NCBI GenBank assembly: GCA_016209635.1
Contig: JACQWC010000130.1
Span: forward strand, 1-60,030
Reading direction: 5' to 3'
DNA length: 60,030 nucleotides
From: Candidatus Rokuibacteriota bacterium
GTDB lineage: Bacteria; Methylomirabilota; Methylomirabilia; Rokubacteriales; CSP1-6
Both the position numbers and the translations under genes were made by a program. The notes under the pieces were generated by a model. That model did no database searches. It had not been told where the DNA came from and saw nothing but the letters and a program-made list of their open reading frames with translations. Shown here in pieces: positions 17,982-22,982 of this stretch (its first letter is position 1; every line of letters starts with the position of its first letter).

Positions 17982-19838
17982 CTACGCGACGATGGCCGGG
18001 TCGACGCGCATCACCACGTAGCCGCCCACGGCGCCGGCGCCGAACCCCGGCGCGAAGACGCGCAACGGCCGGTCGATCACGCCCTCGCGCACGGCATCGT
18101 GGATGGCGAGCGGGATGCTGGCCGACGAGGTGTTTCCCACCCGCTCGATGTTGAAGTAGAGCCGCTCGGGGGCGATTCCCGCGGCACGCGCCAGGTTGAC
18201 GACCATCGTCTTGTTGGCCTGGTGCGGCACGATCAGGTCGATCGCGTCCAGCAGCGAGCCCGCGCCCCCGTCGGGGTGGGGCAGCGCGCCGAGCTCGCCG
18301 ATCATCTGGGTCAGGTAACGCTTGACCAGCGCCCGCACCTCGGGACCGTACACGGTGATGTTGTTGTCGAAGTTCGGGTTGGGCCAGACGATCGAGTCGA
18401 CCTCGCTCATCGGGCCGCTCGCGTAGGTCTGGTACACCTCCACGTCCGGCGGCGCTCCCGCGGGCGCCACGCCCACGACGAGCGCCGCGGCCCCGTCGCC
18501 GAAGATCATCCGGGAGGTGCGCACGGTGCCGATCTTGTCCGAGAACTTCTCCCCGCACACGACGAGCACGGGTCGCTCGACCTCCTGGAGGAGTCGCACC
18601 GCCTCGGAGAGGCCGTAGGGTAGCCCGGCGCAGGCGGCCACGATGTCGCACGACGCGTGCGTCTGGAGCATCCCGAGCTGGCCCGAGAGCCAGGTCGCGA
18701 GGGACGGCATCATCTTGACGCTCGTGCACGAGCAGAAGAGGACCGCGCCGATCTCCTCCGGCCGCCGCCCCGACTTGTCCAGCGCCTTCTGGACGGCCAG
18801 GAGCGCGAGGTGGTCGAGGTCGAGCTCGGTGTACACGCGCTGCTCGATGCCCGTCTTCTTCCAAATTTCGTCCGCCGTCATCGGCGACCAGCAGTAGGCC
18901 GCGTTCCGGATGAGGTCGTCGTTGGTGCAGGCGCGCTCGCCCTTGTACACCGCCAGGGCCTCGAGGCGCGGCATGACCCTGAACCGCCGGCGGACCTCGA
19001 CCGGCGGGAAGGGCGCCACGGGCTGGCGCGACGCGCGCGGGGCCGGCGCCTGCGGCCGGACGCGACGGCTGCCCTTCACCCGGCGGATGAACTGGACCAC
19101 GGCGTCGTTCCGCGGATGAAAGACGACCACGAAGTCGTCGGCGTCGAGCTTCCCCACCTCGATGAGCCGCGTCTTCGCGCGGGCCCACCGGTACTGGTTG
19201 TGGAGGACCATCGCCTGCCGCTGCAGGGCCTCGAGCTCGGGCACCGCGTGCGTGCACTCGATGACCTCCTCGTAGCCGTAGCCGGGATAGTCCGGGTCGT
19301 AGGCGAGCAGGTGGTAGGTCAGGGTCTTCGGATTCGACAGGATCTCCGAGACGGTCGGCTTGATGGCCGGAATCTCCGCCCCGGCGCCCTTCTTGTGGCG
19401 GAAGACGTCGAGGAGGATCCGGAAGACCTTGTCCTCCACGCCCTCGTCCCAGGTCGGGGCGAGCTCCCGGTATCCCGCCTCGATCGCCGAGGTGAGCTCG
19501 GTCCCGTCCCACGGCTTGAAGACGGGCAGGAACACGTCGTCGCGGTTGCGCGGGACGTCCCGCCACCGGGTGGGACGCTTCTCGTACATGGTCATCGCGT
19601 AGCGGTTGACCCAGAAGAGGTTGAGCGCCAGGTCGCGGAGCAGCTCGTACCGCCCGGCATAGCCGCGCGACTCCACCCGGGCGACGATGTCCGTCTCGGT
19701 GGGGGCCTTTTCCTCGAAGTCCCGCTTGATCACCGCCGCGAACTGGTCGAGCGTCTCGAAGACCGAGAAGTCCAGCTCGGGGAAGAAGTTGAAGGGGAAG
19801 ACGATGCGGCCGAAGCGGTTGATCACGAACGGCTTCAT
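17982..19838 (-). CDS. KAS III (FabH-like) condensing enzyme fused to a large unknown N-terminal domain
   Basis: 618 residues, about twice the length of FabH. Residues about 285-610 are a beta-ketoacyl-ACP synthase III: the active-site Cys in SCDIVAACAGLPYGL, His in IVPHQANKT and Asn in ERVGNTSSASIPLA complete the Cys-His-Asn triad. Residues 1-270 (opening KPFVINRFGRIVFPFNFFPE) match no family I recognise and contain no transmembrane run; they are followed by a Pro/Arg-rich linker. It should condense an acyl-CoA or acyl-ACP with a second thioester, with the N-terminal part perhaps acting on substrate or product. ATG 19838 is the start. Confidence 0.82.
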   Translation of the reverse strand: MKPFVINRFGRIVFPFNFFPELDFSVFETLDQFAAVIKRDFEEKAPTETDIVARVESRGYAGRYELLRDLALNLFWVNRYAMTMYEKRPTRWRDVPRNRDDVFLPVFKPWDGTELTSAIEAGYRELAPTWDEGVEDKVFRILLDVFRHKKGAGAEIPAIKPTVSEILSNPKTLTYHLLAYDPDYPGYGYEEVIECTHAVPELEALQRQAMVLHNQYRWARAKTRLIEVGKLDADDFVVVFHPRNDAVVQFIRRVKGSRRVRPQAPAPRASRQPVAPFPPVEVRRRFRVMPRLEALAVYKGERACTNDDLIRNAAYCWSPMTADEIWKKTGIEQRVYTELDLDHLALLAVQKALDKSGRRPEEIGAVLFCSCTSVKMMPSLATWLSGQLGMLQTHASCDIVAACAGLPYGLSEAVRLLQEVERPVLVVCGEKFSDKIGTVRTSRMIFGDGAAALVVGVAPAGAPPDVEVYQTYASGPMSEVDSIVWPNPNFDNNITVYGPEVRALVKRYLTQMIGELGALPHPDGGAGSLLDAIDLIVPHQANKTMVVNLARAAGIAPERLYFNIERVGNTSSASIPLAIHDAVREGVIDRPLRVFAPGFGAGAVGGYVVMRVDPAIVA

Positions 19839-19948
19839 CGCCCTGCTCCATCGAGCGCCTGCGAGCGTCGCCGTGCCACGCCTGGACAGTACCCCGCGGG
19901 GGACGGGCCCGCAAGCCCGCCTCCGCCGCGGCCCGTCTCGGACGCACG

Positions 19949-19954
19949 TATAAT
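19949..19954 (+). promoter_or_regulatory. Consensus -10 box placed for a leaderless transcript
   Basis: TATAAT ends 6 nt before the ATG of the disulfide oxidoreductase, so transcription would start at or next to the start codon. No ribosome-binding site lies in between and no clear -35 is visible. Confidence 0.5.
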
Positions 19955-19960
19955 GGGCGC

Positions 19961-20614
19961 ATGGCGATCCTCGGCGAACGGGACAGGCAGGCGGTCCGGG
20001 AGGAGCTCGCGCGGCTCGGCGGGCCGGTCAAGCTCGTCGTCTTCTCCCAGCAGCTCGCGGCGGGCGACCTCTGCCTCCAGAACGAAGCGCTGGTGCGCGA
20101 GGTGGCGGGCCTCACCGACAAGGCGACGCTCGAGGTCCTGAACCTCGCCATCGATCGCGAGCGCGCGCAGGCGTACGGCGTCGACCAGGTACCCGCCACC
20201 GTGGTCGAAGGAGCGCGCGACTATGGTCTCAGGTTCTACGGGATCCCCTCGGGCTACGAGTTCGCGAACCTGATCGATTCGATGATCGTCGCGTCGACGG
20301 GCGAGCCGGAGCTGACCGCCGAGACCAAGGAGGCGCTCGGGGCGCTCGCGACGCCCATCGACATCAAAGTCTTCTCGACGCCCACGTGACCGTACTGCCC
20401 CCAGGCGGTCCGCCTGGCGCAGCACATGGCCGTCGCGTCCGAGCAGGTCCGCGCCACCGCGATCGCGGCGACGGAGTTTCCGGAGCTCGCTCGCGCCTAC
20501 CGGGTGATGGCGGTGCCGAAGGTGGTCATCAACGACCGCGTGCAGTTCGAGGGAGCGCTGCCCGAGCGGGAGTTCCTCCAGGCGGTGCTGCGCGCGGCGA
20601 ACGGCGCCGTCTGA
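19961..20614 (+). CDS. Predicted selenoprotein: two-domain thioredoxin-fold disulfide oxidoreductase with U-P-Y-C motif
   Basis: 217 residues if TGA 20387-20389 is read as selenocysteine (residue 143). Homologues of the archaeal PDO/glutaredoxin-like family have TPTCPYC in the second thioredoxin fold; here the DNA encodes TPT-TGA-PYC, so the stop codon sits exactly on the first redox Cys. The frame stays open and family-like for 75 more codons, including the cis-Pro loop VPKVVIND. The first fold (VVFSQQLAAGDLC, cis-Pro VPATVV) has lost its CxxC. A hairpin fitting the bacterial SECIS rules lies just downstream. The alternative is a pseudogene or a sequencing error. Expected role: thiol-disulfide exchange. 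ATG 19961 is probably leaderless. Confidence 0.8.
20387..20417 (+). promoter_or_regulatory. In-frame UGA with bacterial SECIS-like hairpin
   Basis: UGA (20387-20389) is followed 18 nt later by the loop of a perfect 7-bp hairpin: CCAGGCG (20401-20407), loop GTC (20408-20410), CGCCTGG (20411-20417). Published bacterial SECIS rules ask for a small apical loop with G in its first two positions, an upper stem of at least 4 bp, and about 16-37 nt from UGA to loop; all are met. The stem also encodes Pro-Gln-Ala-Val-Arg-Leu, normal for this family, so part of the pairing could be chance. Confidence 0.65.
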
Positions 20615-20640
20615 CGACCCGCTCCCCGCGGCCCGCGGCC

Positions 20641-21015
20641 GTGGCCACCCGCGCTGACCTCCTGTTCGTGTACGGCACGCTGATGCGCGGGTACGCGCTC
20701 AATCGCCTCCTCGTCGGCCGCGCGACCTTCCTCGGCGAAGCGCGCGCCGGGGGCCGGCTGCTCGACCTCGGGCGGTATCCCGGCGTGGTCCCGGGCGCGG
20801 GCACGGTGCACGGCGAGGTCTATCGGCTCGCCGATCCCGAACTTCTCCGGACGATCGACCGCGAGGAGGGGTACAATTTTGAGCGCCGTCGCACCACCGT
20901 GATGCTCGCCGAGGGCCGTCGCGCGCGGGCGTGGATCTACCGATACCGCGGGTCATGGGAGCGCGCGATCCCCATTCCCGACGGCGACTATCGCCGGGCG
21001 CGCCCGATCGACTGA
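20641..21015 (+). CDS. Gamma-glutamylcyclotransferase-like (AIG2/GGCT) family protein
   Basis: 124 residues. The N-terminal LLFVYGTLMRG is the substrate-binding YGTL motif, and REEGYNFERR supplies the acidic catalytic residue of the fold. Members release 5-oxoproline from gamma-glutamyl compounds or remove similar adducts from amines. GTG 20641 is the only start that keeps the YGTL strand near the N-terminus. It lies 26 nt after the selenoprotein gene and may be cotranscribed, which would suit a glutathione/thiol theme, but this is inference. Confidence 0.82.
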   Translation: MATRADLLFVYGTLMRGYALNRLLVGRATFLGEARAGGRLLDLGRYPGVVPGAGTVHGEVYRLADPELLRTIDREEGYNFERRRTTVMLAEGRRARAWIYRYRGSWERAIPIPDGDYRRARPID

Positions 21016-21034
21016 TGCGACAGGGGAGGATTCG

Positions 21035-22417
21035 ATGGCGCTGACAGCCGCCGAGCTGGTGAAGGCCGACCAGGACCACCTGATTCATCCGCTGCACCAT
21101 CCCGTCGACAACGCGGAGCCCATCATCTACGTGCGCGGGCGCGGGGCGACGCTCACCGACATCGGGGGCCGCGAGTACATCGACGGGCTCGCCGGCTTGT
21201 GGAACGTGAACGTGGGGCACGGGCGCGCCGAGCTGGCCGAGGCCGCGGCGCAGCAGATGCGGGAGCTGGCGTACTTCTCGGGCTACGTCGGATCCTCCAA
21301 TGTCCCGGCGATCCGGCTGGCCGAGCGCCTCCTCGAGCTGGCCTACGACAACATGCAGGCCGTGTTCTTCACCTCGGGCGGCGCCGAGTCGAACGAGTCC
21401 GCGTTCAAGACGGCCCGCTTCTACTGGAAGGCCGTGGGCAGGCCGGGCAAGGTCAAGGTCATTGCGCGGCAGAACGCCTACCACGGCGTCACCCTCCAGG
21501 CGATGAGCGCCACCGGCATGGCGGCGTACTGGAAGATGTTCGAGCCCCGGGTGCCCGGGTTCGTCCACATCCCGACCTGCTATCCCTACCGGTACCAGGG
21601 GGCCCGGCCGGGCGAGACCGTCGGTCAGGCCGCGGCGCGCGAGCTGGAAGAGGCGATCCTCCGCGAGGGGCCCGACACGGTGGCGGCGTTCATCGCCGAG
21701 CCCATCCACGGCGGGGGCGGCGTGCTCTATCCAACGGACGACTACTTCTCGCTCGTGCGGGACGCGTGCACGCGTCACGACGTGCTGTTCATCGCCGACG
21801 AGGTGATCACCGGCTTCTGCCGCACCGGTCGGTGGTTCGCCCTCTCGCACTGGGACGTGAAGCCGGACATCCTCTCGTTCGCGAAGGGCGTCACGTCGGG
21901 CTACCTGCCGCTCGGCGGCATCATGGTGAGCAAGGCGATCAAGGACGCGATGGACGCGGTGAAGCCCGAGGACCGCTGGATGCACGCGTACACCTACTCG
22001 GGTCACCCGACCTGCTGCGCCGTGGCGCTGAAGAATCTCGAGATCATGGAGCGCGAGCGGCTCTGGGAGAACGCGGCCCGGATGGGCACGCGCCTCCACG
22101 AGGGGCTCCGCACCGCGTTCGGCGACCATCCGAACGCGGGCGAGGTCCGGGGCGGCAAGGGGCTGCTGGCGGCGCTCGAGCTGGTCGCGGACCGTGGAAC
22201 GAAGGCGAACTTCCCCGCCGGGGAGAAGGTGGCGCCGCGGATGCAAGCGGAGATGTTCAAGCGCGGGCTGGTGACGCGCGTCCGGCCCACCTCGGGGTCC
22301 CACCCGGCGAACGGCGACCAGGTCTTCTTCGCCCCGCCGCTCGTCGTCACCGAGGCCGAGGTGGATCGCATCGTGAGCATCACGCGCGACGCGGTCAAGG
22401 CCGTCCTCGGCGCGTAA
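21035..22417 (+). CDS. Class III PLP-dependent aminotransferase (omega-amino acid/diamine:pyruvate type)
   Basis: 460 residues. Motifs: DGLAGLWNVNVGHGR, FFTSGGAESNESAFK for the phosphate cup, AFIAEPIHGGGG, FIADEVITGFCRTG with the PLP-contacting Asp, and LSFAKGVTSGYLPLGG with the Schiff-base Lys. The sequence resembles taurine, beta-alanine or putrescine:pyruvate aminotransferases. The polyamine genes at the start of the window are about 18 kb away, so a role in putrescine use is possible but not shown. An AGGGGAGGA site precedes ATG 21035. Confidence 0.9.
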   Translation: MALTAAELVKADQDHLIHPLHHPVDNAEPIIYVRGRGATLTDIGGREYIDGLAGLWNVNVGHGRAELAEAAAQQMRELAYFSGYVGSSNVPAIRLAERLLELAYDNMQAVFFTSGGAESNESAFKTARFYWKAVGRPGKVKVIARQNAYHGVTLQAMSATGMAAYWKMFEPRVPGFVHIPTCYPYRYQGARPGETVGQAAARELEEAILREGPDTVAAFIAEPIHGGGGVLYPTDDYFSLVRDACTRHDVLFIADEVITGFCRTGRWFALSHWDVKPDILSFAKGVTSGYLPLGGIMVSKAIKDAMDAVKPEDRWMHAYTYSGHPTCCAVALKNLEIMERERLWENAARMGTRLHEGLRTAFGDHPNAGEVRGGKGLLAALELVADRGTKANFPAGEKVAPRMQAEMFKRGLVTRVRPTSGSHPANGDQVFFAPPLVVTEAEVDRIVSITRDAVKAVLGA

Positions 22418-22431
22418 CCGGACGGCGCCGC

Positions 22432-22629
22432 GTGCGGCTGATCACCGCGCACCGCATCCTCATCGGGGCGGCGATCGTGTTCTTCCTCTTCTACGCCCTC
22501 CTCCGGCTGAGTCACTACCTCAAGGACGGCGGCGGCGCGGACCTCGCCCACTTCCTCGTCTCCGGGGCGATCGCAGTGGGCCTGATGCTCTACTACCGGA
22601 CGCTCGCTCGATGGGGCCGGCCGTCCTGA
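22432..22629 (+). CDS. Small membrane protein, two predicted helices
   Basis: 65 residues, opening RLITAHRILIGAAIVFFLFYALLRL, then a short Gly-rich turn and a second helix FLVSGAIAVGLMLYYRTL. GTG 22432 lies 14 nt after the aminotransferase stop and its 3' end overlaps the next gene by 19 bp. No family recognised; the tight packing suggests it is real. Confidence 0.6.
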   Translation: MRLITAHRILIGAAIVFFLFYALLRLSHYLKDGGGADLAHFLVSGAIAVGLMLYYRTLARWGRPS

Positions 22630-22982
22630 TCTACGACGGCGAGTGCGCCGTCTGCCGGGCGAGCGCGCTCTGGATCATGCGCCGCGCGCTCTCCGGCGGC
22701 GCGCTCGAGATCCTGCCCTGCCGGTCGAGCGTCCGCCGGGCGAGGTTCCCGCAGATCTCGGACGAGGCGTGCCTCACGGCGATGCAGCTGGTCCTCCCGG
22801 ATGGCCGCGTCCTCAGCGGCGCCGACGCCGTGCCCGAGATCCTGCGCCGCGTCCGCGGCTGGGGCTGGCTCGCGCGGGTCTTCGCCCTGCCCGGCGCGCG
22901 CCCGGCGGCCCGCAGGCTCTACGCCTGGCTCGCGGAGAACCGCATGCGCCTGCACTGCCGGACCTCGGGGCGCGCCGGCTGA
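22611..22982 (+). CDS. DCC-family thiol-disulfide oxidoreductase (DUF393)
   Basis: 123 residues. The N-terminal LIYDGECAVCRAS is the DGxCxxC signature that names the DCC family, a thioredoxin-like group with a redox CxxC. The rest follows the family: ILPCRS, then a late segment around VFALPGARPAARRLYAWLAENR. ATG 22611 puts the signature at residues 8-15. It overlaps the genes on both sides and so sits in an operon with them. Confidence 0.85.
   Translation: MGPAVLIYDGECAVCRASALWIMRRALSGGALEILPCRSSVRRARFPQISDEACLTAMQLVLPDGRVLSGADAVPEILRRVRGWGWLARVFALPGARPAARRLYAWLAENRMRLHCRTSGRAG

Follow-up and report, generated by a model that had tools for sequence, protein, structure and literature searches.

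A predicted selenocysteine-containing protein disulfide oxidoreductase with a conserved SECIS hairpin in Candidatus Rokuibacteriota

Introduction

Lists of selenoprotein families have included the protein disulfide oxidoreductase (PDO) family since the mid-2000s. Selenocysteine (Sec) forms of PDO are also known in Asgard archaea (PMC11227280), and the PDO of Sulfolobus takes electrons from thioredoxin reductase and reactivates peroxiredoxin (PMC7278568). In the published model of the bacterial SECIS element, a stem of 4–16 bp carries a loop of 3–9 nt with a G in the first two loop positions, lies 16–37 nt from the UGA and has a minimum free energy of −7.5 kcal/mol or lower (PMC13188914). A Methylomirabilota metagenome-assembled genome (MAG) with 63 selenoprotein genes has been reported (Deng et al. 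2026, cited in PMC13188914).

Here we have analysed a PDO gene with an in-frame TGA from a MAG of Candidatus Rokuibacteriota (4.16 Mb, 92.6 % complete, 7.9 % contaminated). The gene lies on contig C99, which is the 60,030 nt stretch of DNA examined as a whole and referred to below as the window. From comparison of the gene with its homologues we conclude that the UGA at 20387–20389 is very probably decoded as Sec, so that the gene would encode a Sec-containing PDO of two thioredoxin folds.

Results

Reading frame and fold of the protein

The features of the locus are collected in Table 1. The in-frame TGA stands in the context TPT-TGA-PYC, where it replaces the first Cys of a CPYC motif. Standard ORF calling stops at 20389, as the initial annotation had anticipated, and yields a product of 142 aa. 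Beyond this point the frame remains open and encodes the cis-Pro loop VPKVVIND; both observations had been made in that annotation, but its count of 75 open codons includes the stop, there being 74 sense codons between the in-frame TGA and the terminal TGA. Seven residues downstream of the TGA (C146, P147, F173, P174, P186, N191 and G198) are invariant in an alignment of 33 sequences.

Table 1. Coordinates of the features of the PDO locus within the window
Feature	Position	Strand	Basis or remarks
Complete selenoprotein CDS (predicted)	19961..20614	+	217 residues, Sec at residue 143; translation with TGA as U; PDO family TIGR02187
Start codon ATG	19961	+	
Terminal TGA	20612–20614	+	Same frame (19961–20614)
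In-frame TGA, predicted Sec codon (Sec143 of U-P-Y-C)	20387..20389	+	Codon-level alignment; TGA in 51/52 strong phylum homologues
Cys146 codon, putative resolving cysteine of UPYC	20396..20398	+	Invariant in 33-sequence alignment
Cys38 codon, remnant of lost CxxC, first thioredoxin fold	20072..20074	+	Alignment with P. furiosus PDO CQYC
Predicted bacterial SECIS hairpin, 7 bp stem, loop GUC, 18 nt after UGA	20401..20417	+	Folding; strongest synonymous constraint of the gene; published rules
5′ stem arm CCAGGCG	20401–20407	+	
Loop GTC	20408–20410	+	
3′ stem arm CGCCTGG	20411–20417	+	
TATAAT −10 box, 6 nt before ATG	19949..19954	+	Probable promoter of leaderless mRNA
Gamma-glutamyl cyclotransferase (AIG2-like), downstream neighbour	20641..21015	+	PF06094; order conserved in Rokubacterial loci

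The translated protein matched NCBIfam TIGR02187 (PDO_seleno_TRX, protein disulfide oxidoreductase) with 248.6 bits against a cut-off of 185, and the match was full length, spanning residues 6–211 and positions 2–208 of the 209 in the profile; glutaredoxin profile models also match it. An AlphaFold2 model built from 33 homologues (pLDDT 95.4, pTM 0.92) aligned in Foldseek with the PDO structures 2ayt and 1a8l at TM 0.93–0.94 and rmsd 1.2–1.5. As modelled, the protein is made up of two fused thioredoxin folds, the C/U-x-x-C of the second being present as UPYC (residues 143–146). Among solved structures, the Pyrococcus and Aquifex PDOs are closest to it, and its best PDB relatives are free-standing PDOs. 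The window protein stops at residue 217, beyond the second fold, and carries no fused flavoprotein (TrxB-like) domain of the AhpF type.

In the first fold, GDLC takes the place of the CQYC of the P. furiosus PDO, so that the second CxxC of a classical two-site PDO of the P. furiosus type is missing there. Since the first fold has lost its CxxC, and since the only cysteines besides Sec143 are C38 and C146, the proposal in the initial annotation that U143-P-Y-C146 would be the sole redox centre is supported by the sequence; Sec143 stands at the nucleophile position of this site. The proposal also holds beyond this protein, as the first CxxC is missing in 50 of the 51 aligned Sec forms of the phylum. 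Outside the phylum, 42 of 52 Sec forms retain the first CxxC and 6 of 42 Cys forms are without it, and the phylogenetic tree needs several changes of each state. A general tie between Sec use and absence of this motif was therefore rejected, and its loss is regarded as lineage-specific.

Conservation of the in-frame TGA

Close homologues in named assemblies come from Candidatus Rokuibacteriota or Rokubacteria, a lineage of the phylum Methylomirabilota. Among 52 strong TIGR02187 genes from 95 genomes of Methylomirabilota/Rokubacteria, a single in-frame TGA is present in 51 and absent from the remaining one; the figure for the window's own family is 48/49. All aligned carriers have the TGA at the identical codon, and no Cys form (TGC or TGT at this codon) was found among the phylum homologues. 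The sole exception in the phylum, L050 of genome G023, has AGA, which is one base from TGA and is not a Cys codon. This gene is 93 % identical to its nearest sister and its SECIS codons are intact; the draft genome G023 gave no selA match, and the same is true of five genomes that carry the TGA. A sequencing error at the TGA is implausible, because the codon is conserved in dozens of assemblies made independently.

Both forms occur in Chloroflexota and a few further genomes (the aligned sequences comprise 52 Sec and 42 Cys forms), with Cys at the Sec codon position in part of the Chloroflexota. In a phylogeny built from 117 proteins, the order to which the window belongs has its Sec proteins in one supported group (100/99), and many changes between Sec and Cys are needed across the family as a whole. 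One further TIGR02187 gene, L142 of genome G500, has both an in-frame TGA and a TAG and is possibly decaying; an intact Cys paralogue is present in the same genome.

The SECIS hairpin

The initial annotation had described a perfect stem and its loop downstream of the TGA, and these were found as described. The hairpin has an energy of −11.2 kcal/mol and, as had been claimed, agrees with the published bacterial model on every point (PMC13188914). Folding energy alone is weak evidence, as it gave z=−1.69 and 12 of 200 shuffled sequences folded as well; the hairpin is not separated from shuffles in this way, and the case therefore rests on conservation. Synonymous entropy in the stem codons averaged 0.14 bits against 1.03 bits for 52 other conserved codons, and none of 100,000 permutations was as low. 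The near-invariant stem codons of the phylum are CCC CGG GCC GTG CGC CTG, and the same amino acids vary freely in codon elsewhere in the gene. A rule-conforming hairpin of −7.5 kcal/mol or lower occurs in 94 % of phylum Sec genes, 29 % of other Sec genes and 10 % of Cys homologues, with median energies of −8.9, −6.2 and −2.4 kcal/mol, respectively. Chloroflexota hairpins attain equivalent pairing with different sequence (GCGAGC/GCUCGC as against CCGGGC/GCCUGG). The synonymous constraint, the hairpin shares of Sec and Cys genes and the equivalent pairing in Chloroflexota together indicate that the hairpin is under selection, and it is predicted to bind SelB and to direct Sec insertion.

The hairpin of the window departs from the phylum consensus at several bases (CAG GCG GTC in place of CGG GCC GTG), yet it conforms to the rules and is more stable. 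The version CAG GCG GTC CGC CTG is an outlier, GCG GTC being common only to this gene and L038. Synonymous constraint also appears outside the stem at codon 142 (20384–20386), the Thr codon before the UGA: of 49 phylum genes (L072 is left out of this count), 48 use ACC and the window gene alone uses ACG. Outside Methylomirabilota (for example in the Chloroflexota loci L123, L133 and L137) a second SECIS type prevails, which is GGCCAGGUUGGCC-like and lies 22 nt from the UGA; its stem does not reach the published energy threshold. An Rfam scan of the 60 kb window at the gathering threshold gave no match.

Selenocysteine machinery and other candidate selenoproteins

The components of the Sec machinery (tRNA-Sec, selA, selB and selD) were all found in the same genome. 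The tRNA-Sec gene lies on contig C168 (69.7 bits; called SeC, anticodon tca, by ARAGORN), with selA (PF03841, E 8e-152) and selB near it, all on one strand. The selD gene is on contig C160, and SelD is itself a selenoprotein (CAGU). Two further candidate selenoproteins are DsbA-like (L001 on C142 and L002 on C32) with the motifs UPYC and UPWC. The genome also encodes a thioredoxin reductase, TrxB, with CATC. Of 57 genomes in the window's family, 51 yielded selA. In Chloroflexota selA was present in 37 of 40 TGA carriers and 33 of 40 Cys carriers, which is no sharp separation. In L047 (8918–13593) the genes selC, selA and selB form a group with a single orientation, and the ORFs of selA and selB overlap.

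Promoter and gene neighbourhood

In 46 of 49 phylum homologues the ATG is preceded, at a distance of 5–9 nt, by a TATAAT-like box (at most one mismatch). The window contains just two copies of TATAAT itself, and Shine–Dalgarno cores are rare ahead of the PDO gene. Because of the position and conservation of this −10 box, the scarcity of the hexamer and the rarity of Shine–Dalgarno cores, the PDO mRNA is probably leaderless. In the deep relatives L020 and L073 the box is 31–33 nt upstream and a GGAGG-like stretch lies in between. Most Rokubacterial loci share the gene order seen from 17985 to 22979, namely a KASIII-like gene (− strand), PDO, gamma-glutamyl cyclotransferase, a class III aminotransferase and a DCC1-like thiol-disulfide oxidoreductase. 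This order points to no redox partner, with the possible exception of the DCC1-like oxidoreductase, which lies three genes further on.

Discussion

The suggestion in the initial annotation of a probable selenoprotein with a bacterial SECIS is borne out by the in-frame TGA shared with 51 of the 52 phylum homologues, by the hairpin and by the Sec machinery of the genome, and none of the findings that the annotation had listed as grounds for refutation was made. Were the TGA instead a real stop, as standard ORF calling has it, the gene would be a pseudogene or would encode a 142-residue protein that breaks off within the second thioredoxin fold. However, such a product would have no CxxC at all, the TGA is fixed in nearly every phylum gene, and the protein sequence encoded beyond the TGA is conserved throughout the phylum, invariant residues included; we regard this explanation as highly improbable. 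An open and conserved frame past the TGA would also be expected if TGA had been reassigned genome-wide, to Trp (code 4) or Gly (code 25), or were read through by a suppressor. This seems scarcely credible, as the read-through TGAs seen fall at redox Cys sites (UPYC of PDO, UPYC/UPWC of the DsbA-like proteins and CAGU of SelD), the PDO gene's own terminator is TGA, the genome has the full Sec machinery, and Cys stands at the Sec codon in homologues elsewhere.

Sequence comparison supports decoding of the UGA as Sec by means of the downstream hairpin and the genome's own SelA, SelB, SelC and SelD. Our current working model is that the Sec143 selenolate attacks a disulfide in a client protein, that Cys146 resolves the resulting mixed selenenylsulfide and that TrxB reduces the U143-C146 selenenylsulfide to regenerate the enzyme, electrons being passed on to peroxiredoxins or other oxidised cytoplasmic proteins as the main clients. 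The assignment of TrxB and peroxiredoxin as partners is made by analogy and seems to us slightly better than an even guess. A selenoprotein with a different partner, acting in glutathione-dependent deglutathionylation or in disulfide formation, is a less likely but serious possibility. It would fit the conserved downstream gamma-glutamyl cyclotransferase-like gene, the nearby DCC1-like oxidoreductase and the match to glutaredoxin models; however, AIG2-like cyclotransferases need not act on glutathione, the conserved gene order spans several unrelated genes, and the PDOs of Pyrococcus and Sulfolobus are reduced by thioredoxin reductase (PMC7278568).

Selenoproteins of this kind are known. What appears to be new is the lineage, from which we recovered no Cys form, together with the absence of the first CxxC and a −10 box whose conserved position implies a leaderless mRNA; in the literature searched we found no description for Rokubacteria of fixation of Sec in PDO, of loss of the first active site or of a leaderless start. 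We suggest tentatively, as somewhat short of an even chance, that the Rokubacterial PDO is an obligate selenoenzyme, with Sec fixed, the second active site gone and a leaderless mRNA. If so, then it would be a core selenium-dependent hub that works as the AhpF N-terminal domain does, but as a free-standing protein, and it would exemplify Sec insertion proceeding efficiently on a leaderless mRNA, a combination that is open to direct testing. With the predicted protein, an uncultivated phylum (the source being a soil and groundwater bacterium) gains a selenoprotein that is almost invariant throughout the lineage. Standard annotation would truncate the enzyme just ahead of the active site, and the sharp synonymous constraint offers a clean natural SECIS data set.

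Compared by family and motif alone, the known Sec member of TIGR02187 (ABB15282.1) belongs to the same profile family and has a UxxC redox motif; the Rokubacterial PDO differs in coming from another phylum, in the fixation of Sec, in having lost the first CxxC in almost every member and in an apparently leaderless mRNA. The archaeal and Aquifex PDOs (1a8l, 1j08, 2ayt and 2ywm) have the same two-thioredoxin fold, with TM 0.92–0.94 normalised to the query and 33–38 % identity, and the motif TPTxPYCP is common to the Pyrococcus PDOs and the window protein. However, the P. furiosus PDO has Cys at both CPYC positions and a second site, CQYC, in the first fold, whereas in the window protein the first of the CPYC positions would be Sec and the first-fold motif is missing. 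The fold is shared as well by the AhpF N-terminal domain (1zyn, 1hyu and 5h29; TM 0.80–0.88 normalised to the query), which has the same layout, with a vestigial first fold and a single active CxxC in the second. Unlike AhpF, the window protein is separate rather than fused to a flavoprotein reductase, would use Sec in place of Cys and is less similar in sequence to this domain than to PDO.
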